Origin: Bacillota bacterium
GTDB taxonomy: Bacteria > Bacillota > Clostridia > Lachnospirales > Lachnospiraceae
Length of the DNA: 13,853 nt
NCBI GenBank assembly: GCA_023398855.1
Contig: JAEWRS010000414.1
Span: 1-13,853 of the forward strand
Reading direction: 5' to 3'
The position numbers and the translations under genes are program-made. Below, piece by piece: positions 42 through 13,415 of this stretch. The number at the start of each line of letters is the position of its first letter. Within the stretch, counting starts at the first letter, position 1. The notes beneath the pieces were generated by a model. It had not been told where the DNA came from. It did not search any database and saw only the letters and a program-made list of their open reading frames with translations.

Positions 42-1709
42 ATGTTGAATTATCAAAGATATAAAAAGGTACCGGTAGTCAGTAATCCGGAGAGACAATG
101 GCCGTGCAATGAGATTAAGAAAGCGCCTATCTGGTGTAGCGTTGATTTGAGAGATGGAAACCAGGCTCTTACAGAGCCAATGGTCGTGGAAGAGAAGATC
201 GAGATGTTTGATCTGCTTATAAGACTGGGTTTTAAAGAGATTGAGGTTGGTTTCCCGGCAGCTTCTCAGATTGAATTTGATTTCTTAAGGCAGCTTGTAG
301 AGCGAAAGCTGATACCTGATGATGTGGTCATTCAGGTTCTGGTCCAGTGCAGGGAGCATTTGATCAAAAGGACTTTTGAAGCCCTTCAGGGAGTTAAGAA
401 GTCAATTGTGCATATTTACAATTCTACTTCCACCCTGCAAAGGGATGTGGTTTTCAATAAGGGAAGAGACGAGATCAGGGAGATCGCGGTAAACGGCACG
501 GAATGGGTGAAGCAGTATATGCAGGGCTTTGACGGAGAAGTGACCCTTGAGTATTCTCCGGAAAGTTTTACGGGAACAGAGCTGGATTTTGCTCTGGACA
601 TTTGTACAGCCGTTCAGGAAACCTGGGGCGCATCACCGGATAAGAAGATCATCTTTAATCTTCCGTCAACAGTGGAGATGGCGACTCCCAATGTTTATGC
701 AGATCAGATAGAATGGATGAATACCCATTTTAAGAACCGGGACAGTATTATATTAAGTGTACACCCTCATAATGACCGGGGAACCGGCATTGCGGCCACG
801 GAGCTTGCCCTGCTGGCAGGAGCCGACCGGGTGGAAGGAACGCTGTTAGGTAATGGTGAGCGGACCGGAAATGTAGACATTTTAACGGTGGCATACAATA
901 TGTTTTCTCAGGGAATCAATCCGGAGCTTCACATTGAGAATATCCGTGAGATTGTTGATGTATATGAGCGCTGCACCAAGATGGAGGTGGAGCCAAGACA
1001 TCCATATGCAGGAAAGCTTGTTTTTACTGCTTTTTCCGGCTCCCATCAGGATGCCATCAACAAAGGCATGAAGGCTATGCGGGACAGGAAGAATTCCTAT
1101 TGGGAAGTTCCGTACCTGCCCATCGACCCATCAGATATTGGCAGGCAGTATGAACCTATTGTGCGGATTAACAGTCAGTCAGGCAAAGGCGGCGTGGCCT
1201 TTGTTATGGATACCTTCTACGGTTTCAAGCTGCCCAAGGGAATGCACAAGGAGTTTGCAGATGTGATCCAGGCCATTTCAGAACGGCAGGGTGAGGTTGC
1301 TCCTGAACAAATCCTTGATGAATTTAGAAACCACTATACCGAAAAGAAAGAGCCGATCCATTTCCGTAAATGCCAGATCACTGAAGCAGAGGACGATGTG
1401 GAATTCTCAACCCTTGCCAAAGTCCGGTACACGGATCACGGAGCAGAGAAGATCTTCGAAGGAGTAGGAAACGGACCCATCGACGCGGTACAGAAGGGGT
1501 TGGAAAAAGAACTTGGCATTGAAATCCGGGTTCTGGATTACTATGAGCATGCTCTTGCTTCCGGTTCCGGAGCGCAGGCAGCTTCCTATATCCATCTGTT
1601 GGACGTGAAGACAGGAAAAGCTACTTATGGTGTGGGAATCAGTTCCAATATCACAAGAGCATCTATCCGCGGTATTTTCAGCGCAGTCAACCGGTTATTT
1701 TATTCATAA
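42..1709 (+). CDS. leuA: 2-isopropylmalate synthase (LeuA), long form
   Basis: First committed enzyme of leucine synthesis: condenses acetyl-CoA with 2-oxoisovalerate in the cytoplasm. 555 residues, the usual length of the long LeuA form. Seen: the N-terminal HMGL-type TIM barrel (about 30-300) with SVDLRDGNQAL at 33-43 (metal-binding Asp38), HPHNDRG at 241-247 (metal-binding His241/His243) and GNGERTGN at 270-277; then a linker, and a C-terminal LeuA regulatory domain from about 425 with GSGAQAAS and the closing GVGISSNITRASIRG segment, where leucine feedback inhibition acts in the family. The start is set by GGAGGAG at 28-34, seven bases before the ATG. The upstream promoter or leader lies outside the window, so a T-box cannot be judged. 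It ends in its own terminator, convergent with the LacI gene, so it is not part of the sugar operon. Confidence 0.97.
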   Translation: MLNYQRYKKVPVVSNPERQWPCNEIKKAPIWCSVDLRDGNQALTEPMVVEEKIEMFDLLIRLGFKEIEVGFPAASQIEFDFLRQLVERKLIPDDVVIQVLVQCREHLIKRTFEALQGVKKSIVHIYNSTSTLQRDVVFNKGRDEIREIAVNGTEWVKQYMQGFDGEVTLEYSPESFTGTELDFALDICTAVQETWGASPDKKIIFNLPSTVEMATPNVYADQIEWMNTHFKNRDSIILSVHPHNDRGTGIAATELALLAGADRVEGTLLGNGERTGNVDILTVAYNMFSQGINPELHIENIREIVDVYERCTKMEVEPRHPYAGKLVFTAFSGSHQDAINKGMKAMRDRKNSYWEVPYLPIDPSDIGRQYEPIVRINSQSGKGGVAFVMDTFYGFKLPKGMHKEFADVIQAISERQGEVAPEQILDEFRNHYTEKKEPIHFRKCQITEAEDDVEFSTLAKVRYTDHGAEKIFEGVGNGPIDAVQKGLEKELGIEIRVLDYYEHALASGSGAQAASYIHLLDVKTGKATYGVGISSNITRASIRGIFSAVNRLFYS

Positions 1710-1719
1710 TAATAATGAG

Positions 1720-1754
1720 GGCCAGCCTTTTTTAAAGGCTGGCCTGTTTTTTTG
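1720..1754 (+). terminator. Intrinsic terminator of leuA
   Basis: An 11-bp perfect stem, GGCCAGCCTTT at 1720-1730 and AAAGGCTGGCC at 1734-1744, with a three-base TTT loop, followed by a T-rich run (1745-1754). It lies 10 bases after the leuA stop. On the minus strand the same hairpin is followed by CTCATTATTATT rather than a T run, so it should work well for leuA and poorly for the convergent LacI gene. Confidence 0.93.
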
Positions 1755-1771
1755 TTTGAGAAGGATACTTA

Positions 1772-2779
1772 TTAGATTTTTGCTGTAGATTCCCTGATCA
1801 CCAGCTCTGCATCCAGAATCAGGGATTTTGGAGAACTGGAAGGGTTTTCCACCATTTCAAGCAGCATTTCACAGGCAGTATATCCCAGCTGTAAACGGGG
1901 TTGGTTTACGGTTGTGATGGAAGGGCAGGTCATTGTGGAAAATTCTATGTTGTCAAAGCCAACTACCATAATATCCTTTGGCACATTGAGCTTGAAACGC
2001 TTTGCGGCTCTGATGACGGCGGCTGCAAAAATATCAGAGACCACAAAAAACGCATTGGGCCTTGGTTCGCTGTTTAACAGGCGGCAGATCGCTGCGTAGG
2101 CCATCTGGTAATTGATCTCAGGTAGCTGTATGATCCAGTTTTGCGGTACGGAAATTTCTGCTTTTTTTAATGCACTTAAATATCCTTCCTGCCGTTGGAC
2201 TGCGTATTTAAAGCTCAATGGTCCATTGATCAGGGCGATCTTATTACAGCCGCAGTTGTACAAATATCCGGTAGCAGCTTCTGCTGCAGAAAAGTCATCA
2301 ATACTGACATAAGGATATCCAGCGGCCTCTTCGTTGTATTCACAGCACTGTACTACAGGGGTGATGGCGCGAATCTGCTGCAGCTGTTCTTCTGATGCCC
2401 GGTTTAAAAGGATAGAGCCGGCGGCGTTGACCCTGTGCAGCAGATTACAAAATGTTCGTATGGAACCTCGGTCTAGAGGTGATTCATTGATGAGCAAGTG
2501 GCAGCCATGGGCCTTTGCCGAAACTCTTGCCCCTTTTATGACTTCCTGGTAGAACACATTTTCAATCCCTGGAATATTTAAGACAATCAGCGGCTGCTCT
2601 TCAATGGAAGAAGGACCAATGGATTCAAATGCATATCCAAGAGCAGCCATGGCGTTTTCCACTCTTTTGGCTGTATCAGCTTTTACCAGTTCCCTGTGGT
2701 TTAACACCCGGGAGACTGTTGCCGGTGATACTCCAGCCTGCCGGGCAATTTCTTCCAATGTAATTTTCTCTTGTTTCAT
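1772..2779 (-). CDS. LacI-family transcriptional repressor, likely local regulator of the sugar operon
   Basis: 335 residues, the normal LacI/GalR length. Seen: N-terminal helix-turn-helix at about 6-25 (ITLEEIARQAGVSPATVSRV), then a periplasmic-binding-protein-like sensor domain from about 63, with late VVGFDNIEFS and SITTVNQP segments typical of the family. The hinge after GY (residues 47-48) reads AFESIGPSSIEE and lacks the usual PNxxARxL helix that docks in the operator minor groove. It is divergent from the oxidoreductase-transporter operon, which is the standard arrangement for a local repressor; the effector is presumably the imported sugar or a product of it (inference). GGGAG lies eight bases before the ATG. 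A TTTACA-17-TATAAA promoter upstream is flanked by an inverted repeat, pointing to autoregulation. Confidence 0.93.
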   Translation of the reverse strand: MKQEKITLEEIARQAGVSPATVSRVLNHRELVKADTAKRVENAMAALGYAFESIGPSSIEEQPLIVLNIPGIENVFYQEVIKGARVSAKAHGCHLLINESPLDRGSIRTFCNLLHRVNAAGSILLNRASEEQLQQIRAITPVVQCCEYNEEAAGYPYVSIDDFSAAEAATGYLYNCGCNKIALINGPLSFKYAVQRQEGYLSALKKAEISVPQNWIIQLPEINYQMAYAAICRLLNSEPRPNAFFVVSDIFAAAVIRAAKRFKLNVPKDIMVVGFDNIEFSTMTCPSITTVNQPRLQLGYTACEMLLEMVENPSSSPKSLILDAELVIRESTAKI

Positions 2780-2799
2780 TTCTGTTCTCCCTCAGTACG

Positions 2800-2843
2800 T
2801 TGTTTACCTTGTTTATAACATGAGTAAATCCTTTTGTAAACAA
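2800..2843. promoter_or_regulatory. Inverted repeat TTGTTTAC-N28-GTAAACAA over the lacI-type promoter (candidate operator)
   Basis: TTGTTTAC at 2800-2807 and its exact reverse complement GTAAACAA at 2836-2843 lie with centres 36 bases apart. One arm covers the -35 and the other the predicted start site of the repressor gene. A related direct copy, TTGTTTAT, sits at 2809-2816. The position fits autorepression, but the spacing is wide for a single LacI-type dimer site; the two arms could be half-sites of separate operators or could bind another factor. Confidence 0.4.
2812..2840 (-). promoter_or_regulatory. Promoter of the LacI-family gene
   Basis: Reading the minus strand, TTTACA (2840-2835) and TATAAA (2817-2812) are separated by exactly 17 bases, a good sigma-A promoter. 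Transcription would start near 2805, giving a leader of about 25 bases with GGGAG before the ATG at 2779. The -35 overlaps one arm of an inverted repeat and the start site overlaps the other. Confidence 0.75.
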
Positions 2844-2848
2844 TAATA

Positions 2849-2864
2849 TTTCATAATCATGAAA
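2849..2864. promoter_or_regulatory. Palindrome TTTCATAATCATGAAA (candidate operator)
   Basis: Arms TTTCAT (2849-2854) and ATGAAA (2859-2864) are perfect around a four-base centre; the symmetry continues imperfectly outwards (AATA / TATT with one extra A on the right). The 16-base size is right for a LacI-family dimer operator, though the central CG usual in the family is absent. It lies upstream of the repressor's -35 and about 100 bases before the operon -35. Confidence 0.35.
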
Positions 2865-2904
2865 ATATTTCTGAAAAATATGAGCTGGATTGTGCAATAT
2901 GTTT

Positions 2905-2935
2905 ATGTTATTGCTATAAAATATAGATATAACAT
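2905..2935. repeat. ATGTTAT-N17-ATAACAT inverted repeat, part of a four-copy motif
   Basis: ATGTTAT at 2905-2911 and its exact reverse complement ATAACAT at 2929-2935. The same heptamer occurs twice more in the divergent region: ATAACAT at 2815-2821 over the repressor -10, and ATGTTAT at 3020-3026 in the operon leader. It may be a regulator half-site; the AT-rich background means chance is not excluded. Confidence 0.3.
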
Positions 2936-2963
2936 GGAAAAACTATTAATAACGCCCAAAAAC

Positions 2964-2992
2964 TTGAAGTATAGCTGCAAAAATGATAAAAT
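2964..2992 (+). promoter_or_regulatory. Promoter of the sugar operon
   Basis: TTGAAG (2964-2969) and TAAAAT (2987-2992) are separated by 17 bases, and TGA directly before the -10 gives an extended TGn element. Transcription would start near 2999 and leave a leader of about 60 bases. This is the best sigma-A match between the divergent genes; it faces the oxidoreductase gene. Confidence 0.72.
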
Positions 2993-3060
2993 CATGTTGA
3001 AATAATGAAAGAAATGAAAATGTTATGAAAACCAGTCATAAGAGGAAAAGAGAGGACGCT

Positions 3061-4110
3061 ATGAAGGTAGGAATCATTGGGTGTGGCAGGATCGCACAGA
3101 CAAGACACATTCCTGAATATGCAGATCATCCGGGAACCCAGATCATTGGTTATTATGATTTTAACCAGGAAAGGGCAAAGGAACTGGCTGCAATTTATGG
3201 GGGAAAGGTATATGACTCCGCGGATGCCCTGCTGGCTGACAGAGAAATTGAAGCAGTGAGCGTTTGCACGGCAAATCACACCCATGCTGAAATTACGATC
3301 AAAGCCCTCAGGTCGGGAAAACATGTGCTGTGTGAAAAGCCTATGGCAGTAAGCCTTGAGGAATGCAGAGCAATGGTAACCGCTGCCGCTGAGAACAACC
3401 GGAAGCTGATGATCGGACAGAACCAAAGGTTTGCCAGGGCACATGCCAGGGCAAAGGAGCTTCTTATGGAGGGATTAATTGGTGACGTCCTGACATTTAA
3501 GACTACATTTGGTCACGGAGGTCCGGAAACATGGAGCATAGACAGTGGCATCAGCAGCTGGTTTTTTGATATAAAAAAAGCGGCCATGGGAGCCATGGCT
3601 GATCTGGGAGTTCATAAGACAGATTTAATACAGTTTCTGCTTGGACAGAAGGTGGTGGCAGTAACAGCCCAGCTGGTTACACTGGATAAGAGGAATGAAG
3701 CTGGAGAGCTGATCGGAGTAGATGACAACGCTATCTGCATATATGAGATGGAGCAAGGCTCCATAGGAACCATGACCGCCAGCTGGACCTATTATGGCAA
3801 GGAAGATAATTCCACGGTTCTATATGGTACCAAAGGGATTATGAAGATCTATGATGATCCGGACCACTCTATTTCGGTTACTTTAAAAAATGGGGAACAG
3901 ATTTTTTATGATATCGATAAGATACAGACCAACGACAACCAGACCAAATCCGGAATCATTGATGCATTTGTGGATGCCCTGGAAGGGGAGAGGGAAGTGC
4001 CGGTCAGCGGGGCCGATGTTCTGAGTGCCATGGAAGCGGTGTTTGCCTGCCAGAAATCCAGCAGGGAGAAGCAAAGGATTGTGATAAGGGAAAAGGGAGA
4101 GATCGGATGA
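3061..4110 (+). CDS. Gfo/Idh/MocA-family NAD(P)-dependent sugar oxidoreductase
   Basis: 349 residues, normal for the family. Seen: N-terminal Rossmann fold MKVGIIGCGRIAQTRH with GxGxxA; the family CEKPMAV motif at 91-97, whose Lys93 is the usual catalytic lysine; GQNQRF at 119-124; and DLGVHKTD at 181-188, giving the Asp181/His185 pair of the active site. Family members oxidise or reduce a ring hydroxyl or keto group of sugars, inositols or glycosides with NAD(P). The start at 3061 is chosen because AGAGGA (3051-3056) precedes it and the Rossmann strand begins directly; an in-frame ATG at 3025 has no ribosome binding site and would add a basic 12-residue tail. It is the first gene of the operon and overlaps the next by four bases (ATGA), so the two enzymes are probably translationally coupled and act in one pathway. 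The exact substrate cannot be read from the sequence. Confidence 0.92.
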   Translation: MKVGIIGCGRIAQTRHIPEYADHPGTQIIGYYDFNQERAKELAAIYGGKVYDSADALLADREIEAVSVCTANHTHAEITIKALRSGKHVLCEKPMAVSLEECRAMVTAAAENNRKLMIGQNQRFARAHARAKELLMEGLIGDVLTFKTTFGHGGPETWSIDSGISSWFFDIKKAAMGAMADLGVHKTDLIQFLLGQKVVAVTAQLVTLDKRNEAGELIGVDDNAICIYEMEQGSIGTMTASWTYYGKEDNSTVLYGTKGIMKIYDDPDHSISVTLKNGEQIFYDIDKIQTNDNQTKSGIIDAFVDALEGEREVPVSGADVLSAMEAVFACQKSSREKQRIVIREKGEIG

Positions 4111-5021
4111 AACTGGGATTTGTCAGCGCAATTCTGGCTGAATGGAGCTTTGAAGAAATGATTGATACGGCTGCAGACATGGGGTTCCAATGTGTGGAGG
4201 TGGCCTGCTGGCCTCAGGGAAAGGCAGAGCGAAGGTATGCGGGAGTCAGCCACATTGATGTGGAAACTCTCACAGAGGAAAAGGCAGCATACATAGAAAA
4301 CTACTGTAAAAAACGGAAGGTAGAGATTTCAGCCCTTGCATTTTACCCCAATGCGATGGAAGGGAATGAGGAAAAGAGCCGGGAAAGTATTTCCCATCTT
4401 AAAAAGGTTATTGATGCCAGCGCTTTGCTGGGGGTGGGACTTGTGACCACCTTCATCGGCAGAGACCAGACAAAGACCGTTGAGGAAAACTTTGATCTGG
4501 TAAAAAAAGTATGGCCGCCGATCCTTGCCTATGCGGAGGAAAAAGGGGTAAAAATTGCCATTGAAAACTGCCCTATGTTATTTGGAATCGAGCAGTGGCC
4601 CGGAGGACAGAATCTGATGACAACGCCTGCAATCTGGGATAAAGTTTTTGAGATTCTGCCAAATGAAAATCTTGGGATTAATTATGACCCTTCTCATTTT
4701 GTCTGGCAGATGATGGATTACATCCAGCCTCTTTACCAGTTCAGGAAGAAAATTTTTCACGTTCATTATAAGGACATTAAGCTGTACGAGGATAAGCTGA
4801 AAAAGGTTGGCACCATGGCCTATCCCCTGGATTATATGTCGCCCAAGCTCCCTGGCCTTGGAGATGTGGACTGGGGAAAATATGTCAGCGCATTGACAGA
4901 TATCGGGTATGACGGATTTACCTGCATTGAAGTGGAAGACAGGGCGTTTGAAAGCTCAAGAGAAAAAATTCTGGACAGTTTAAAGCTGTCTAAGAAATAT
5001 ATGGACCAGTTTATTATTTAG
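4107..5021 (+). CDS. Sugar phosphate isomerase/epimerase, AP endonuclease family 2 TIM barrel
   Basis: 304 residues. The (beta/alpha)8 barrel pattern is visible, with the expected metal ligands at strand ends: Glu153 (IAIEN), Asp194 with His197 (NYDPSH), His220 (FHVHYKD) and Glu275 (CIEVE). Members (IolE, IolI, xylose-isomerase-like proteins) isomerise or epimerise sugars or keto-inositols using a divalent metal, or act as dehydratases. The gene overlaps the oxidoreductase stop by ATGA, with GGGAGA just upstream. Pairing of a Gfo/Idh/MocA enzyme with this barrel is common in catabolism of inositols and keto-sugars, but the product of this pair is not known. A cytoplasmic location follows from the lack of a signal peptide. 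Confidence 0.88.
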   Translation: MKLGFVSAILAEWSFEEMIDTAADMGFQCVEVACWPQGKAERRYAGVSHIDVETLTEEKAAYIENYCKKRKVEISALAFYPNAMEGNEEKSRESISHLKKVIDASALLGVGLVTTFIGRDQTKTVEENFDLVKKVWPPILAYAEEKGVKIAIENCPMLFGIEQWPGGQNLMTTPAIWDKVFEILPNENLGINYDPSHFVWQMMDYIQPLYQFRKKIFHVHYKDIKLYEDKLKKVGTMAYPLDYMSPKLPGLGDVDWGKYVSALTDIGYDGFTCIEVEDRAFESSREKILDSLKLSKKYMDQFII

Positions 5022-5078
5022 GTTAAGGCACTTAATTGCTTTAATAGAGAAGGAAATGTAAAAGGAGGAATCAGTAAT

Positions 5079-6212
5079 ATGAAAAAAGCGGCAGCAATTA
5101 TTTTGGCGGCATTGGTGGCGGTGGCTGGAACTGCATGTTCCCAGGTAAAGCCTGCAGACACCACAACAGCGGCAAAAGCAGAAGCAACGGCAGAGACAAC
5201 CTCTGCAGAAACAGCAAAAGAGACAGAGGCTCTTAAAGAAGGGGCACATATCTATGTCCTGACTGTTCCTGAGGATCACGGCTGGACCGGTTCAGTGGCT
5301 ACTTTTGCAAAAGAGAAGATTGAAGAGGTGAATGGAAAGGGCAGCTACACGGCTGAACTGATTACCTCTGCCAATGCGGCTGAACAGATCCGCAACATTG
5401 AGGATATCGTTTCCAAGGGAGAAAAGAATATTGCAATGGTCATCCAGCCTATTGATGATACGGTGCAGTCTGCTATTCAGGGTGTCATTGATGCGGGAAT
5501 CCCCTATGTGGCTTTTGACCGGATTATTGACGGTGTGGCAGCAAAGGCAGTATCCAATGTAAAAGGCGACAATTCCGGCATCGGAGCAGGTGCAGCAGCC
5601 TATTTTGTATCCCTGGGACTCACACCTGGAGAAGCCATCTATGTGTATGAAGGAGACACCTCTTCCGTTACTACCTTAAGAGACGAGGGCTTTACTAAAT
5701 ATTTGACAGGAGAACTGGGATTTGGCGGAGAAACCATTGCAGCAGATAAGAAATGGTCTCAGGATGACTTAAAATCCATTACATTTTCAGGAGCCATGAA
5801 CTGGAGCCGTTCAGACACAAAAACCTCTTTTGAATCTCTCATGGGAGACAGCAAGAACGCTAAGATCAAATGGTTCTATGCAGAGGATGATGAACTGGCA
5901 ATGGGGATTTTAGAGGCACTTTCCGGAGGCGGCATTGACGAAGGGACCAAGGAAGTCTTTCTTTCGGGAAAACCGGCCATTACCGGATGTGGAGGTCTTG
6001 ATGAACTGTATGAAGTACTTCGGGGGAAATCCTATCAGGATATTGCATCAAAATGCGGCGGTATCATGTCTGTTACCTATAGTCCGTCCATGATCCAGAC
6101 AGCCATTGAGGATATGGTAGATTATCTGGATGGAAAGAAAGTCACTCAGGATCACGTGATTGCCTGTGAAAATGTAACATCAGATAATGTAACTGAGTAC
6201 CCATCCTTTTAG
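5079..6212 (+). CDS. ABC sugar transporter substrate-binding lipoprotein
   Basis: 377 residues. The N-terminus is a secretion signal (MKK then a hydrophobic Ala/Val stretch) ending in AGTAC-S, so Cys20 is the likely lipidated residue; the -3 position is Gly rather than the usual Leu, a loose lipobox. A low-complexity Ala/Thr/Glu/Lys tether spans about 24-51. The rest is a two-lobed sugar-binding fold of the ribose/galactose/xylose type, with ITSANAAEQIRNIEDI, VIQPIDDT and IPYVAFDRII segments that build the ligand cleft. AGGAGG (5063-5068) precedes the ATG. It follows the isomerase by 57 bases and is followed by a stem-loop before the ATPase gene, which fits the usual need for more binding protein than transporter. 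The ligand is not identifiable; a pentose, hexose or polyol is plausible. Confidence 0.93.
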   Translation: MKKAAAIILAALVAVAGTACSQVKPADTTTAAKAEATAETTSAETAKETEALKEGAHIYVLTVPEDHGWTGSVATFAKEKIEEVNGKGSYTAELITSANAAEQIRNIEDIVSKGEKNIAMVIQPIDDTVQSAIQGVIDAGIPYVAFDRIIDGVAAKAVSNVKGDNSGIGAGAAAYFVSLGLTPGEAIYVYEGDTSSVTTLRDEGFTKYLTGELGFGGETIAADKKWSQDDLKSITFSGAMNWSRSDTKTSFESLMGDSKNAKIKWFYAEDDELAMGILEALSGGGIDEGTKEVFLSGKPAITGCGGLDELYEVLRGKSYQDIASKCGGIMSVTYSPSMIQTAIEDMVDYLDGKKVTQDHVIACENVTSDNVTEYPSF

Positions 6213-7793: not shown

Positions 7794-8867
7794 ATGAAGG
7801 CAGGAGAAAAGAAAGGCAGGGTATCCCTTGGCCTTGTATCCAGGTGGTGCGGGGAATTCAGCTTTATTATCGTGTTTGTACTGATTTTTGCAGTGTATGC
7901 AATAACCAGCAACGGACTGACCTGGAGCGGAACCATGAATATCTTCCGCCACTCGGCAGTGGTGGGGATCATTGGTCTGGGAATGGGGCTGGTTTGTCTG
8001 ACAGGGGAAATAGATTTGTCGGTAGGCTCCATGCTGGCCTTAAACAGCGGGCTGTCTGTGATTCTGTTTAACATCACGGATAGTATTATGGCCACGTTGG
8101 TGTTTGCTCTTTTATTTGGCGCTGTATGCGGTCTGGTCAATGGTTTGCTGGTTGGTTACGTAAAAATGCCGGCATTTATTGTTACTTTAGCTACCATGCT
8201 GATTTACCGTTCCTTTGCCCAGTATATCTGTCAGCATATTGATAAGGCCCTTGCAGGAGGAGGCAGCAGTGTTTACCGGATGATCAAGGAGTTGTCCTTT
8301 TACCAACCCTTTTATGGCCTGGGAAACGGAAAGGTTTTTACAATCCCCATTGTGGGTCTGATCCTGATTTTAATTACCGCAATATTTGTTTACATAACTA
8401 CCAATACCAAGTACGGAAAAAAAGTCTATGCAGTTGGCAGTAATGCAAAGGGTGCCCAAATGGCTGGAATCAATGTAAGTCTTATGAAGGTGTCCGTGTT
8501 TATGCTTGGGGGAATATTGACAGGGCTTGCCGCTTTTTTGTGGGTGGCCATGAATGCTTCCTCTGATCCGGCCACAACGGGGAACAGCTATGAAATGTAT
8601 GCGATTGCGGCAGTGGTATTAGGAGGAATCAGCATGTCAGGCGGAAAGGGCAAATGCCTTGGAATTTTGTTTGGGGCCATGTCCTATACCATTATTGATA
8701 AGATTATTGTAGCACTGAAGATGGATTCCTTAATTAATGATGCCATTAAGGGGATTATTCTTATTCTTGTGATTATGGTTCAGATTATCGGGCCGCGGAT
8801 TAAGGAATGGATTACGAGACATCATGAATGGCCCATAAATAGGAATGGTCATGATAAGATAAGATAA
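7794..8867 (+). CDS. Sugar ABC transporter permease, RbsC/MglC/XylH type
   Basis: 357 residues, very hydrophobic, with about nine or ten membrane segments (for example 22-38, 53-70, 101-122, 125-142, 183-203, 234-252, 286-303, 318-334). Family signatures seen: TGEIDLSVGSMLAL (70-83), matching the GGxDLSVGS element of the branched-chain/ribose-type permeases, and the cytoplasmic VGSNAKGAQMAGINV loop (214-228) that contacts the ATPase. It forms the channel, presumably as a homodimer, for the sugar delivered by the upstream lipoprotein. GGAGG (7781-7785) overlaps the end of the ATPase gene. It is the last gene of the operon, and only one permease gene is present, as is normal when a homodimer is used. 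Its C-terminal tail is short and polar. Confidence 0.94.
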   Translation: MKAGEKKGRVSLGLVSRWCGEFSFIIVFVLIFAVYAITSNGLTWSGTMNIFRHSAVVGIIGLGMGLVCLTGEIDLSVGSMLALNSGLSVILFNITDSIMATLVFALLFGAVCGLVNGLLVGYVKMPAFIVTLATMLIYRSFAQYICQHIDKALAGGGSSVYRMIKELSFYQPFYGLGNGKVFTIPIVGLILILITAIFVYITTNTKYGKKVYAVGSNAKGAQMAGINVSLMKVSVFMLGGILTGLAAFLWVAMNASSDPATTGNSYEMYAIAAVVLGGISMSGGKGKCLGILFGAMSYTIIDKIIVALKMDSLINDAIKGIILILVIMVQIIGPRIKEWITRHHEWPINRNGHDKIR

Positions 8868-8878
8868 GAGCAAAGGAG

Positions 8879-8936
8879 GGGAATTTGCTGATGGTACTGG
8901 TGGGGAATCAGGTATCATCAACAAATTCCCTTTTTT
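8879..8936 (+). terminator. Intrinsic terminator of the sugar operon, long two-part hairpin
   Basis: An outer stem of nine perfect pairs, GGGAATTTG (8879-8887) with CAAATTCCC (8922-8930), is followed by TTTTTT. Inside, across one C/A mismatch, TGATGGTAC (8889-8897) pairs with GTATCATCA (8912-8920), nine pairs with one G-U. The closing loop is 14 bases. It begins 11 bases after the permease stop. Confidence 0.92.
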
Positions 8937-9120
8937 CATCCGGAAATACGTTCCGGACGTCCCACAAAAAACCGGGTTTCGAAAGGAGAATTCGATTTTC
9001 CCAGTGAGTTAAGTATAAAAAAGACTAAAAACAGTTGTCTGCGAATACTCAGGAGATAGGTTTATATTTAGCGGCATCATAAAATAAGGATAACTATCTA
9101 TATTATAATCTATCCCTATA
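8937..9120. other. Non-coding stretch between operon terminator and agr locus
   Basis: No gene is seen on either strand. It contains a small perfect hairpin, CCGGAA (8940-8945) and TTCCGG (8951-8956) with a five-base loop, and a weaker imperfect fold at 8974-9002 around TTCGAA and TTCGA flanked by GGG and CCC. From about 9010 it is strongly AT-rich. On the minus strand a 23-codon frame begins at an ATG near 9085 but has no ribosome binding site. Confidence 0.5.
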
Positions 9121-9159
9121 AATTGGACTTGTGTCAAAAATATAGACACAAGTCCAATT
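9121..9159 (-). terminator. 15-bp perfect inverted repeat just after agrB (possible terminator)
   Basis: AATTGGACTTGTGTC (9121-9135) and GACACAAGTCCAATT (9145-9159) are exact reverse complements around a nine-base loop. It starts two bases past the agrB stop, where a terminator is expected. No clean T run follows on either strand (TATAGGG on the minus side), so it may act as a 3' mRNA cap or weak terminator rather than a classical one; a protein-binding palindrome is also possible. Confidence 0.55.
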
Positions 9160-9161
9160 CG

Positions 9162-9722
9162 TCATGCTTTTCTTTGCTTTTCAACAATAATTGCAATTGC
9201 CGAGGCTGTAATGCCGCAAATTAACATTTTGCTGATATATACACTATAAAATACCCAAACTCCCCCTGTTATCAATCCAAGAACTACTACAATGATTCTG
9301 GACTTCTTCTGGTAATATTGGATCTCAGACGGACTCATACGTTTTCCATCATTATCAATAGGAGCATAAATCATGATGATAAATGAAGAGAGAAGCCAAA
9401 CAATTATATATACCAGATCACTTAAATTCTGTCTGTAAAATAGCAGACCAGAGAAAACAGTAAGACAAGATACGGCGTAGCAGCCTGTTCTGGTCTTGGC
9501 GTGATAACCACCGGCATTTTCCCGTATTGGAATAAAAGCACATGCCATGACAAATAAGTCAAAAACTTGCTGCATCAAGATTGCTATGGTTATATAAGAA
9601 ATATAATGCATTAGTTTCAGAAGCAGACATTCTATGCCAAAATCGTAGAGATCCTGTTCCGATTCTAAAATAATGCCATCTCTGACCATGCTTTTTGATA
9701 TGTAGCCAACTAATTTTTTCAT
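9162..9722 (-). CDS. agrB: AgrB-type peptide-processing membrane protease
   Basis: 186 residues, normal for AgrB. It is an integral membrane cysteine endopeptidase that removes the C-terminal tail of AgrD and forms the thiolactone intermediate. Seen: the catalytic motif RENAGGYHAKTRTGC (67-81) with His74 and Cys81, the same seven-residue spacing as His77/Cys84 of Staphylococcus aureus AgrB; several hydrophobic helices (about 40-65, 83-95, 102-120, 144-160, 164-180); and YAPIDNDGKRMS after the middle helices, the family's APxDxxxK element. The start at 9722 has only a weak upstream GATGAAG; a two-codon frame (ATG AAG TAA) overlaps its ATG as TAATG. It lies 31 bases after agrD, presumably co-transcribed from the agrD promoter. 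Codons and flanks are more AT-rich than in the sugar operon. Confidence 0.93.
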   Translation of the reverse strand: MKKLVGYISKSMVRDGIILESEQDLYDFGIECLLLKLMHYISYITIAILMQQVFDLFVMACAFIPIRENAGGYHAKTRTGCYAVSCLTVFSGLLFYRQNLSDLVYIIVWLLSSFIIMIYAPIDNDGKRMSPSEIQYYQKKSRIIVVVLGLITGGVWVFYSVYISKMLICGITASAIAIIVEKQRKA

Positions 9723-9753
9723 TACTTCATCAACTCAATGAATATGAAATTTA

Positions 9754-9900
9754 CTAATTAATTTTCTTGAATTTTGCAGCGCTCTCAGGCATTTTGGGCT
9801 GATATCCGATGCAGATACAAGCTGAATTTGCCTCCTTTTTAGATGTGGATAATGCAGCCTTCGAAAGTAAGGTTAAAGCTGTTTCTTTAAAGTTTTTCAT
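9754..9900 (-). CDS. agrD: AgrD-type cyclic lactone autoinducer peptide precursor
   Basis: 48 codons read directly from the minus strand: amphipathic N-terminal leader MKNFKETALTLLSKAALS, then KKEANSACICIGYQPKMPES and a basic tail AAKFKKIN ending at TAG. This is the architecture of AgrD: leader for membrane binding, a short signal core around Cys, and a charged tail removed by AgrB. By alignment with the clostridial SAC-xxxx-(H/Y)QPxxP pattern (from memory of the C. perfringens precursor SACLWFTHQPEEP) the thiolactone should join Cys28 to Gly32, giving ring Cys-Ile-Cys-Ile-Gly with an N-terminal tail of undetermined length. The start has GGAAG about eight bases upstream and its own promoter. 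It lies between the kinase and agrB, in the right place and strand. An overlapping frame on the plus strand (9809-10084) is not credible. Confidence 0.93.
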   Translation of the reverse strand: MKNFKETALTLLSKAALSTSKKEANSACICIGYQPKMPESAAKFKKIN

Positions 9901-9940
9901 GTTTTTTCTTCCTTTCTTGTTTTTTAAATACTATGGTTTC

Positions 9941-9968
9941 ATTATAGCTGAATGTCTTGTGCTTTCAA
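9941..9968 (-). promoter_or_regulatory. Promoter of agrD-agrB
   Basis: On the minus strand, TTGAAA (9968-9963) and a perfect TATAAT (9946-9941) are separated by 16 bases. The start site would fall near 9934, leaving a leader of about 34 bases with GGAAG before the agrD ATG. This makes agrDB a separately controlled unit from the kinase and regulator genes. Confidence 0.82.
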
Positions 9969-9970
9969 TG

Positions 9971-10003
9971 TTTATAGCACGAAAGACAGTTTTTTTGCAC
10001 GAA
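9971..10003 (-). promoter_or_regulatory. Direct repeats TTCGTGC upstream of the agrD promoter (candidate LytTR regulator sites)
   Basis: On the minus strand TTCGTGC occurs at 10003-9997 and again at 9983-9977, 20 bases start to start, each followed by a similar A/T run (WAWAAA). The near copy ends eight bases before the -35, so the repeats lie at roughly -45 and -65. AgrA/LytTR regulators are known to bind pairs of about nine-base direct repeats one to two helical turns apart in this position. The sequence differs from the S. aureus AgrA box. Confidence 0.6.
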
Positions 10004-10056
10004 GTAAGTACTTCATCTGCAAAAGAGTCAGAGAGCCAGAGTCAGCCCGGCGGTTT

Positions 10057-11367
10057 CTACATATTAATCAGGACATTACACTGAAAGATTCCGTTTTCAC
10101 TGCTTAGGTTCATAGAACCATCGTATTTTTCTACTGCACGCTCAACATTGCTTAACCCGATTCCGTGATTGGTCCCTTTTTGGGATATGGGTCTGCCTTC
10201 CTTCCAGCTGACTATATTGCTTGAAGAGTTTTCGATTTTTATTGCAATCATTTCATAGTAAGGGTTGATTTTCAGCCTGATCCATGGAGCCCCGTTTACT
10301 TGTTCACAGGCCTCTAAGGCATTATCCAGTAAATTGCCGAAAATTGTGGTAATATCCATGGGATTCATGAAGCTTAAATCCACGTTTCCTATTTCAAATT
10401 GCAAATCAATATGCAGCTTCTCTGCATTATGTATCTTGTCATTAAGAAGGATGTTTAAAATACCATTATTAGTAAGCTGCTGTGGAAGTAAAGGCTTTAG
10501 GATGGTATTGATTTCTTTGATATAATTGATTGTCCCTTCCTTATCATCTCCATGATACAGCCCTTCCATTACTGCGATATGCTTATTAACATCGTGGAGG
10601 ATCCGAAGCGATTCCAGATGTTTCTTCTCCTGATGTAAATAATATTTATACTGCATAGTCGCCTGCTGTTCCAACAATTCCAGTTTTACTTTTAATTGAT
10701 AATTATCCTCCATAAAACGTATAAAATATAGAAAATACATATCTGCAAATATAATAAATCCCAGGTTAATCAGAAGAATGAAACTCATGCTTTCCCCTTT
10801 GATTTTCCCATATGAGACTGCTATGACAACCATGTTCATAAAGCTGTAAATGGTAATAATAAAATGAAGTATGTACTGTGTTTTGGTAAATTTAACTTTC
10901 CCGTTTCTTCCCCACACAGGAGAAATAAATACATAATACATAAACAGCAGTACAATCATGGAAAATGTCATATTAAGAAAGTTTTTCATCCCTGGATCTA
11001 ACTGAGGCATATTCATTTTCCAGAATACAAATTCGATTAATGTTACTCCTGTAGCCTCGCATACCGCAAATACCAAAACCATTACTTCTGCTTCCAGAAC
11101 CCTTCGTATGGGTCTGTCAAAATCGTCAAAATACAAGAAATAGCTGACTAAGCCGTACAAAATGACCCAACTCAGCATATTCGCCAAGGGCATCTGCAAT
11201 ACATTGACACTCATTAAGAAGACACTGACGACCACTTGAACAAGTATATATAGCAGCTTGTTATGAAATGCTTTTTTATGCCTGCTCCCGATAAACTGAA
11301 ATATTACTATCGTTGTAACTGTGCATGAAATAATGATGCCAAACAAAAACAATAGGTTATTTTCCAT
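10057..11367 (-). CDS. agrC: AgrC-type sensor histidine kinase (GHKL ATPase)
   Basis: 436 residues from the chosen start. The N-terminal half holds about seven membrane segments (roughly 4-27, 38-59, 63-80, 93-116, 131-151, 164-187, 195-217), the peptide-sensing part in AgrC proteins; then a helical linker (about 222-250), the phosphoacceptor HDVNKH (His258), the N box NLLDNALEA (345-353) and the G box GTNHGIGLSNV (398-408) of the GHKL ATPase. It would autophosphorylate in response to the cyclic peptide and pass phosphate to the adjacent LytTR regulator. The start is placed at 11367, not at the upstream ATG at 11388, because AGGAG (11380-11376) lies eight bases before it. That site is built from the last codons of the regulator gene, whose stop is one base upstream, so the pair is translationally coupled. 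Confidence 0.92.
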   Translation of the reverse strand: MENNLLFLFGIIISCTVTTIVIFQFIGSRHKKAFHNKLLYILVQVVVSVFLMSVNVLQMPLANMLSWVILYGLVSYFLYFDDFDRPIRRVLEAEVMVLVFAVCEATGVTLIEFVFWKMNMPQLDPGMKNFLNMTFSMIVLLFMYYVFISPVWGRNGKVKFTKTQYILHFIITIYSFMNMVVIAVSYGKIKGESMSFILLINLGFIIFADMYFLYFIRFMEDNYQLKVKLELLEQQATMQYKYYLHQEKKHLESLRILHDVNKHIAVMEGLYHGDDKEGTINYIKEINTILKPLLPQQLTNNGILNILLNDKIHNAEKLHIDLQFEIGNVDLSFMNPMDITTIFGNLLDNALEACEQVNGAPWIRLKINPYYEMIAIKIENSSSNIVSWKEGRPISQKGTNHGIGLSNVERAVEKYDGSMNLSSENGIFQCNVLINM

Positions 11368-11368
11368 A

Positions 11369-12121
11369 TTAAATACTCCTGTGAACATAATTATTTAGAT
11401 GCTCTTTAAAAGCAATTACCCTCTTTTGCGATAAAGGAAGCCGTTCTCCTGTATTCAAATAAACCATATCTCCTTTTACCTTTGCCACATGTTCAAAATT
11501 AACGATCACACCCCGGTAGCAGGTGCCAAAGCCATATAATTCCATTCGCTGCTCCACATCTGCAATTGTTCCTATGTACTCGTACGTTTTTTTCAGTGTC
11601 TTTACTCTGATTTTACGTGCTGTCTTCACGTATTCAAAATAAAGGATTTTTGAAACGGTCACTTTAATTGCCGGATATTCTTTTTTTCCGCTGTCACTTA
11701 TTTCTGTAACATTGGTCAATACAATTTCTATATCATTTCCTCTGTCCAACCCAATGACCTGAACCAGTTCACTGACGTGATCGGTTAACTGCTTTTTTTC
11801 AACAGGCTTGGGCAGATAGGCAAACGCATGTGCGCGGTTAATCGCATCATTGCAGTATCCATCATACCCTGTAATATAAATGATCCTGACTTTTCTGTTT
11901 CTCTGGTATAGTTTCATCCCTGCCTCAATTCCATTCATTCCTCCCATTGAAATATCAAGAAAGACAAAATCAAAGCTTATAGAAGAGGCTATCAGCTCCT
12001 CTCCGGAAGGAAACATCTGAATGCTGTAAAGGATTCCATGATTATTCATAAATTCTTCTACAAGTTCTTTAATTGCTGCAGCCTCATTCCATTCATCATC
12101 GCAAATTGCCACTCTAAACAT
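11369..12121 (-). CDS. agrA: AgrA-type LytTR response regulator
   Basis: 250 residues. Receiver domain about 1-125 with the acidic pair Asp8/Asp9, phosphoacceptor Asp56 (FLDISM), Thr84 and Lys105 (LPKP). LytTR DNA-binding domain about 150-245, with IKVTVSKILYFEYVKTARKI, YRGVIVNFEHV and LPLSQKRV segments typical of the family. Phosphorylated by the downstream kinase, it would activate agrD-agrB through repeats near 9971-10003 (inference). GGGAG (12134-12130) lies eight bases before the ATG. It is the first gene of the minus-strand agr unit and divergent from glf. Confidence 0.92.
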   Translation of the reverse strand: MFRVAICDDEWNEAAAIKELVEEFMNNHGILYSIQMFPSGEELIASSISFDFVFLDISMGGMNGIEAGMKLYQRNRKVRIIYITGYDGYCNDAINRAHAFAYLPKPVEKKQLTDHVSELVQVIGLDRGNDIEIVLTNVTEISDSGKKEYPAIKVTVSKILYFEYVKTARKIRVKTLKKTYEYIGTIADVEQRMELYGFGTCYRGVIVNFEHVAKVKGDMVYLNTGERLPLSQKRVIAFKEHLNNYVHRSI

Positions 12122-12172
12122 TTCTTCATCTCCCTAAAGCCTTATCTTTTTATCGTTAGCAAGTATATTAAT

Positions 12173-12202
12173 ATTTTAACTCAAATAAGCCGGATTTGGC
12201 AA
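12173..12202 (-). promoter_or_regulatory. Possible promoter of the regulator-kinase unit
   Basis: On the minus strand TTGCCA (12202-12197) is followed after 18 bases by TAAAAT (12178-12173), or after 17 by TTAAAA. It leaves a leader of about 45 bases before the regulator ATG at 12121. The region is AT-rich, so other -10 choices exist. No TTCGTGC repeat is seen here, unlike at agrD. Confidence 0.4.
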
Positions 12203-12249
12203 TTAAACCACTTATATATTAGTTTTGATGAAGTAAATAAGTACATAGA

Positions 12250-12278
12250 TTTACTTTTTTAGGTGATTTTAGTATAAT
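12250..12278 (+). promoter_or_regulatory. Promoter of glf
   Basis: TTTACT (12250-12255), a 17-base spacer and a perfect TATAAT (12273-12278). The start site would be near 12285, about 30 bases before the glf ATG, with AGGAG (12301-12305) in between. Confidence 0.68.
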
Positions 12279-12314
12279 GTAGGAAGTTTATGACAGTGAC
12301 AGGAGAATGAAACC

Positions 12315-13415
12315 ATGAAAAAATATGATTATGTGCTGGTAGGCGGCGGTCTCTATTCTGGTGTTTTTGCATATATGGCAAGACAAAAGGGAAAAAGGTG
12401 CCTTGTGGTAGAGAAGAGAAGTCATATGGGCGGTAATATTTACTGCGAAGAAACAGAAGGAATCCACGTACACCGTTACGGAGCCCATATTTTCCACACC
12501 AGCAACAAGAAGGTCTGGCAGTTTGCCAATGGATTGGCTGAGTTCAATCGTTATACCAACAGCCCGGTGGCAAATTACAAAGGTGAAATGTACAACATGC
12601 CCTTTAATATGAATACGTTCAGCAGGATGTGGGGAATATCCACCCCTGCGCAGGCAAAAGCAAAGATTGAAGAGCAGAAAGCCTCCATAACCGGTGAACC
12701 AAAGAATCTGGAGGAGCAGGCAATCAGCCTTGTGGGCAGAGATATTTATGAGAAGCTGGTAAAAGGCTATACAGAAAAACAGTGGGGCAGAGACTGCAAA
12801 GACCTTCCGGCCTTTATCATCAGGCGCCTGCCTGTCCGGTTTACCTATGACAACAATTATTTCAATGATTTATATCAGGGAATTCCAATCGGCGGATACA
12901 ATGTGATCATTGAAAGGCTGTTTGAGGGTTGTGATGTAGAGCTGGGTGTGGACTATCTGGAACATAAAGAATATTATAATGAATTAGGAAAAATGATAGT
13001 TTACACAGGAACCATTGATGCATATTATGACTACCGGTTTGGGAAACTGGAATACCGGAGCCTGCGGTTTGAGACTGAGGTAGCTGATACGGAAAATTAC
13101 CAGGGAGTGGCTGTGGTTAATTATACAGACAGGGAAACACCCTATACCAGGATCATTGAGCACAAGCATTTTGAATTCGGGTCCCAGCCGAAAACTGTGA
13201 TCACCAGAGAGTACCCGGAGGCCTGGAAGGAAGGCATGGAGCCGTATTATCCTGTTAATGATGAAAAAAACCAGGAATTGTATCAGCAATACGCTGCCCT
13301 GGCCGGCCATGAGACCAATGTAATCTTTGGCGGACGTTTGGGAGAATATAAATATTACGATATGGACAAGGTCATTGAATCTGCCATGGAAAAGGCAACC
13401 AGCGAATTAATGTGA
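12315..13415 (+). CDS. glf: UDP-galactopyranose mutase
   Basis: 366 residues, the normal bacterial length. It converts UDP-galactopyranose to UDP-galactofuranose, the donor for galactofuranose in surface glycans, using reduced FAD. Seen: N-terminal FAD-binding DYVLVGGGLYSGVFA, VVEKRSHMGGNIY (31-43), RYGAHIFHT (54-62) and GYTEKQWGRD (151-160) around the flavin; RLPVRFTYDNNYF with active-site Arg175; YTGTIDAYYDYRFG (230-243); and FGGRLGEYKYYDMD (338-351), whose Arg341 matches the second conserved substrate arginine. It has its own promoter and terminator, and no glycosyltransferase or other surface-polysaccharide gene is present in the window, so it appears monocistronic. AGGAG is nine bases before the ATG. 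Confidence 0.97.
   Translation: MKKYDYVLVGGGLYSGVFAYMARQKGKRCLVVEKRSHMGGNIYCEETEGIHVHRYGAHIFHTSNKKVWQFANGLAEFNRYTNSPVANYKGEMYNMPFNMNTFSRMWGISTPAQAKAKIEEQKASITGEPKNLEEQAISLVGRDIYEKLVKGYTEKQWGRDCKDLPAFIIRRLPVRFTYDNNYFNDLYQGIPIGGYNVIIERLFEGCDVELGVDYLEHKEYYNELGKMIVYTGTIDAYYDYRFGKLEYRSLRFETEVADTENYQGVAVVNYTDRETPYTRIIEHKHFEFGSQPKTVITREYPEAWKEGMEPYYPVNDEKNQELYQQYAALAGHETNVIFGGRLGEYKYYDMDKVIESAMEKATSELM

Follow-up and report, generated by a model that had tools for sequence, protein, structure and literature searches.

Background

The nearest counterparts described for the locus reported here are the agr2 locus of C. difficile and the agrBDCA locus of S. aureus. The C. difficile agr2 locus has the order agrACDB, and the available text of the source suggests that it forms a single transcript (PMC3754575); it includes a LytTR regulator and a short AgrD of 46 residues, whose ring is given as NSA[SSWVA] in Table 1 of PMC12312760. 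For S. aureus, the available text of PMC10196373 reports that AgrB needs R70, G75, H77 and C84, that AgrD carries its ring cysteine at position 28 and is cut between residues 32 and 33, and that the acidic residues D33 and E34 are needed for cleavage. An amphipathic leader is given as an AgrD feature in PMC12312760, and none of the autoinducing peptide (AIP) rings listed in Table 1 of that source has a second cysteine inside the ring. Clusters of the cyclic-lactone-autoinducer type are described as common in Lacrimispora, with further study called for (PMC11316579), and our literature search for AgrD together with autoinducing peptides in Lachnoclostridium found nothing.

The window analysed here, by which we mean the whole stretch of 13,853 nucleotides, carries a four-gene locus on the minus strand in the order agrA-agrC-agrD-agrB. 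In its A-C-D-B order, its LytTR regulator, its short AgrD (48 residues) and its clostridial host the locus is like C. difficile agr2, from which it differs in the predicted ring (CICIG) and in having a conserved promoter-like block before agrD, where a single transcript is suggested for agr2. All four parts are also common to S. aureus agrBDCA, the gene order being reversed. An Rfam scan of the window returned no family at gathering score, neither a counterpart of S. aureus RNAIII nor any other, and a tRNA scan found none.

The agrD frame and its product

The agrD frame runs from ATG to TAG at positions 9754-9900 of the minus strand, between agrB (9162-9722) and agrC (10057-11388), with 31 bp between its stop and the start of agrB. 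Its translation is a 48-residue AgrD pro-peptide, MKNFKETALTLLSKAALSTSKKEANSACICIGYQPKMPESAAKFKKIN, composed of a leader (residues 1-27), a predicted ring (C28-I-C-I-G32) and a tail beginning YQPKMPES. The initial annotation had proposed a 48-codon minus-strand frame at this place and a comparison of its product with autoinducer profiles; when this was run, the peptide matched the NCBIfam model TIGR04223 (AgrD cyclic lactone autoinducer) with 46.9 bits (E 2.1e-12) against a curated cut-off of 19, which bears out both the frame and its AgrD identity. No Pfam match was obtained for the peptide. Comparison of the window with four related genomes further supports the frame as real: 20 of the 38 codons compared are variable, 17 of them through silent changes only, and first, second and third codon positions contribute 1, 1 and 19 variable columns. 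By this codon-level comparison purifying selection is shown to act on the AgrD peptide, and the third-position pattern favours the minus strand as the coding one, as the initial annotation had chosen. An antisense frame on the plus strand (9809-10084) was rejected as the true gene. Stops interrupt it in two of the four relatives (L063, L065) and its ATG is lost in two (L063, L066), so that it is broken or startless in three of the four; in L064 the ATG is kept and the frame stays open over the compared stretch.

In an alignment of 15 AgrD rows, C28, Q34, P35 and P38 are invariant, and the AgrD pattern of a cysteine four residues ahead of the processing site, followed by a tail with a conserved P..P, is present. 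Because C28 is invariant in these 15 sequences and the second cysteine is not, we took C28 as the ring-forming residue and predict the macrocycle to be CICIG. The core had previously been read as ANSAC, which is incorrect, as this alignment has the ring start only at the last letter of that motif. The positions of the ring cysteine and of the presumed cut are those of S. aureus AgrD, from which the peptide differs in two respects: its ring holds a second cysteine, and Y33 and Q34, within the tail YQP, replace D33 and E34. In addition, the hydrophobic moment of the leader is not above that of its own shuffles, 2144 of 5000 of which reach it.

The second ring cysteine is kept in the window and all four close relatives, of which G009 shares the complete CICIG ring with the window. 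A C-x-C ring occurs in 36 of 121 peptides (the window peptide and the best 120 of 1868 profile matches), a fraction that is inflated by the profile, eight of whose 15 seed rows are themselves C-x-C, and that is not to be read as a frequency; in the other 85 the third ring residue is not cysteine. The C-x-C rings seen among the AgrD relatives (P0001-P0004 and P0016-P0132) include CICIG, CMCIG, CLCLN, CPCIN and CPCWN, besides others. As judged from these alignments, the second cysteine inside the ring is a mild oddity common to other Lachnospiraceae AgrDs.

A search for close peptides gave three matches, one of which, P0002, carries a source name; it is 98% identical over 94% and is named by NCBI 'cyclic lactone autoinducer peptide [Lacrimispora sp.]'. 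Source names are shown by 21 of the best 120 of the 1868 profile matches, and all 21 read 'cyclic lactone autoinducer peptide'; the other 99 have none, as is usual. The window peptide belongs to the same family as these named peptides of Lacrimispora and other Lachnospiraceae and shows no difference of substance from them. The earlier expectation that automatic annotation would probably miss the gene is not supported, given that NCBI maintains a dedicated model (TIGR04223) and P0002 is already named.

The other genes of the locus

The agrB gene (9162-9722, minus strand) encodes a membrane peptidase of 186 residues that matched PF04647 with 114.7 bits against a cut-off of 23. Its residues R67, G72, H74 and C81 are invariant in a ten-row alignment, and their spacing matches that of the residues reported as needed in S. 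aureus AgrB. A comparison of AgrB with solved structures found no relative, only two matches at chance level. The agrC gene (10057-11388, minus strand) encodes a GHKL sensor kinase of 443 residues (PF14501, 88.7 bits, cut-off 22), or of 436 residues if read from the second ATG, the point at which similarity to its relatives starts; motifs and hydropathy give six hydrophobic segments, H265 and NLLDNALEA at 352. The agrA gene (11369-12121, minus strand) encodes a response regulator of 250 residues with D56 and a LytTR DNA-binding domain, which exceeded the cut-offs of both PF00072 (51.7 bits) and PF04397 (44.1 bits). With all four Pfam families above cut-off, the proposal that AgrB, a GHKL kinase and a LytTR regulator complete the locus is upheld.

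On the agrA side the locus is flanked by glf (PF03275) and beyond agrB by an ABC permease gene (PF02653), which looks like part of a sugar-uptake gene group. A Pfam scan of eight flanking proteins found none resembling a bacteriocin or immunity gene product.

The region upstream of agrD

A predicted agrDB promoter, TTGAAA-16-TATAAT, lies at 9941-9968 on the minus strand, and its hexamers are invariant in all five sequences. It is the best of 12 promoter-like matches in the region 8860-12330, agreeing at 11 of 12 positions; shuffled sequence yields 13.4 such matches, and the match count by itself therefore proves nothing. The conservation of the hexamers across the five sequences is, at the level of sequence comparison, the stronger promoter evidence. 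The suggestion that agrD has its own promoter is supported as far as the conserved promoter-like block is concerned. The proposed ribosome binding site, AAAGGAAG, is found directly 5' of the agrD start in all five sequences, which supports it.

Upstream of the -35 hexamer is a tandem TTCGTGC repeat (9977-10003, minus strand) whose units start 20 bp apart and which we regard as a candidate AgrA site. A spacing of 20 bp is about two helical turns and resembles that of LytTR sites. The repeat is exact in the window, L064, L065 and L066, with one base changed per unit in L063, and it occurs as a single copy in the window when both strands are scanned. The order of the block is common to the five sequences: a TTCGTGC unit, seven A, GTC, the second TTCGTGC unit, TTGAAA, 16 bases, TATAAT, AAAGGAAG and the agrD start. 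In L065 about 620 extra bases, including a 108-codon frame, stand between agrC and the block, which is still whole. The presence of this conserved promoter-like block right before agrD suggests that there may also be a separate agrDB unit.

Searched genome-wide, the repeat and its A-tract are present at agrD in all four relative genomes (mismatches: G006 0, G009 1, G020 0, G021 0); a single additional match, with one mismatch and away from agrD, occurs in each of G006 and G020. The reversed repeat pattern matches more often than the true pattern in all four genomes, which leaves the position of the repeat and the longer block as the informative features, and for the same reason no further regulon targets are claimed from these genomes.

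Directly after agrB, a 16-bp hairpin (9120-9160, minus strand; -24.2 kcal/mol, z -6.66) is a candidate terminator. It was not returned by the terminator scan, which accepts only loops of 3-8 and requires a run of T; the hairpin has a loop of 9 and few T in its tail. A similar hairpin follows agrB in L063 and is absent from that place in L064-L066.

Conservation in the nearest genus

For comparison we used 25 genomes from the nearest genus, probably Lacrimispora, to which the nearest named proteins belong. An AgrD of the window type (E <= 1e-15) was found in four of them (G006, G009, G020, G021), and the same four carry the close type of AgrB, so that the frame is kept beside the same agrB in every close relative. 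The A-C-D-B order and the glf and permease flanks are as in the window in all four. Protein identity to the window is 86-90% for AgrA, 83-89% for AgrC, 70-81% for AgrB and 91-96% (over 45-46 residues) for AgrD, with the qualification that the four loci (L063-L066) come from one genus, that L064 and L066 have the same AgrD and that they are not four independent tests. Matches to TIGR04223 above cut-off were present in all 25 genomes, one to six per genome and 75 in total, which suggests, at the level of profile matches, that strains of the genus commonly have several agr-type signals in parallel.

We also searched for the locus on mobile elements. A plasmid collection gave no match by DNA and five records below 60% identity with AgrB; phage records gave no match with AgrD and three distant places, in unannotated records, with AgrB; and viral contigs searched with the single AgrB gave no relative. 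A phage or plasmid origin was set aside, having found no support in these searches and the flanks being the same in all five loci. A first scan of genome contigs recognised a relative in none of 39 stretches, and a second recovered 22 loci, the best 41% identical and none of the close type. Separately, a search of viral contigs with an AgrB alignment returned one distant AgrB relative of 28% identity (L023, IMGVR_UViG_3300010278_000245).

A related agr locus with acetone-pathway genes

An AgrB of a more remote type (E 1.9e-51 to 4.4e-46) was found in 15 other genomes of the 25, at loci L067-L081. In the four of these loci that were listed gene by gene (L067, L073, L076, L079), the interval between agrC and agrB contains genes for a thiolase, an acetoacetate decarboxylase and the CoA-transferase subunits A and B; NCBIfam confirmed these four enzyme families for L073 only (1147-5564 of the reverse-complemented stretch). 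All 15 have a decarboxylase match (PF06314) in the locus stretch; that of G016 is truncated where the contig ends, and that of G025 is split in two. An agrC match is present in 12, the three where it was not seen being L069, L075 and L077. The AgrD of these loci has the ring CFFIG and adjoins agrB in 13 cases and agrC in two (L073, L079). One genome, G017, has a similar decarboxylase (4.3e-70) and no AgrB at E <= 1e-40. At E <= 1e-20, a free-standing decarboxylase is absent from the four window-type genomes; in three of them PF06314 matches within an open frame of 944-955 residues, and G009 has no such match. The gene arrangement suggests that acetone formation may be under agr control. Literature searches on agrD or AgrB together with acetoacetate decarboxylase listed no title or abstract opening that describes such an arrangement.

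Discussion

We consider it very probable that the window frame represents agrD within a complete quorum-sensing locus of the agr type, because TIGR04223, PF04647, PF14501, PF00072 and PF04397 all score above cut-off; because the A-C-D-B order and flanks recur in four of four relatives, with silent substitutions in agrD and the R/G/H/C residues of AgrB kept; and because the promoter hexamers and the repeat are conserved and S. aureus AgrD has a like ring cysteine and cut position. Several observations count against this reading: the leader, no more amphipathic than its shuffles; the Y33/Q34 pair in place of the acidic residues of S. aureus, though Q34 is invariant in the 15-row alignment; the common genus of the four relatives; the more frequent matches of the reversed repeat pattern; and the lack of an AgrB relative among solved structures. 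The gene product is most likely the precursor of a small cyclic signal, used by this clostridial bacterium to sense its own numbers. AgrB would cut AgrD after G32 by means of C81 and H74, and a five-residue thiolactone would form between the thiol of C28 and the carboxyl of G32. The leader would then be removed, leaving a short exotail or none ahead of CICIG, and the exported peptide would bind the membrane domain of AgrC, which would phosphorylate AgrA. Finally, AgrA may bind the tandem TTCGTGC repeat and raise agrDB transcription, giving positive feedback.

The possibility of a chance ORF, or of an agrD in decay, has the shortness of the frame (48 residues) in its favour and seems exceedingly improbable in view of the TIGR04223 score, the silent substitution pattern and the conserved RBS and promoter. 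Nor does it seem at all likely that the product is AgrD-like with another role, for instance as a bacteriocin or an interference peptide, the adjacent kinase answering to something else. The AIPs of one S. aureus group are reported to inhibit other groups (PMC12312760), a precedent for such a role, but AgrA, AgrC, AgrD and AgrB stand together in all five loci, the conserved promoter block precedes agrD, and the eight flanking proteins offer no bacteriocin or immunity candidate.

A tentative alternative, which we hold possible, concerns the last chemical step only and leaves gene and locus unchanged. If removal of the leader left C28 as the first residue, its free amine could attack the thioester (S-to-N acyl shift), and the mature signal would be a homodetic cyclopeptide, cyclo(CICIG), with two free thiols that might close a disulfide, rather than a thiolactone. 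The five-residue AIP of Listeria, which lacks an exotail, rearranges in this manner, its half-life at pH 7 and 37 C being 1.3 min, and Ruminiclostridium cellulolyticum is reported to show a comparable shift (both in the available text of PMC11297923). The retention of the second cysteine in the window and its four relatives, together with the recurrence of C-x-C rings, also speaks for this outcome, but the recurrence is inflated by the profile seeds and most of the 121 peptides lack the cysteine, and the shift is impossible if an exotail residue remains on the ring. More speculatively, and in our estimate very improbably, the C-x-C AgrDs of Lachnospiraceae, that of the window included, might give rise to a signal sensitive to redox conditions, in the form of a homodetic or thiolactone ring in which the second thiol can form an internal disulfide or shift the thioester. 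If this were true, such a signal would report redox state along with density.

The window agrD is a textbook member of the AgrD family, already recognised by databases, and the picture of agr systems is unchanged. The locus adds one well-supported AgrD with a predicted CICIG ring and a candidate autoinduction site, which is useful for annotating and testing Lacrimispora signalling. The recurrent second ring cysteine and the acetone-pathway genes in the related agr locus are the parts that deserve a later look.
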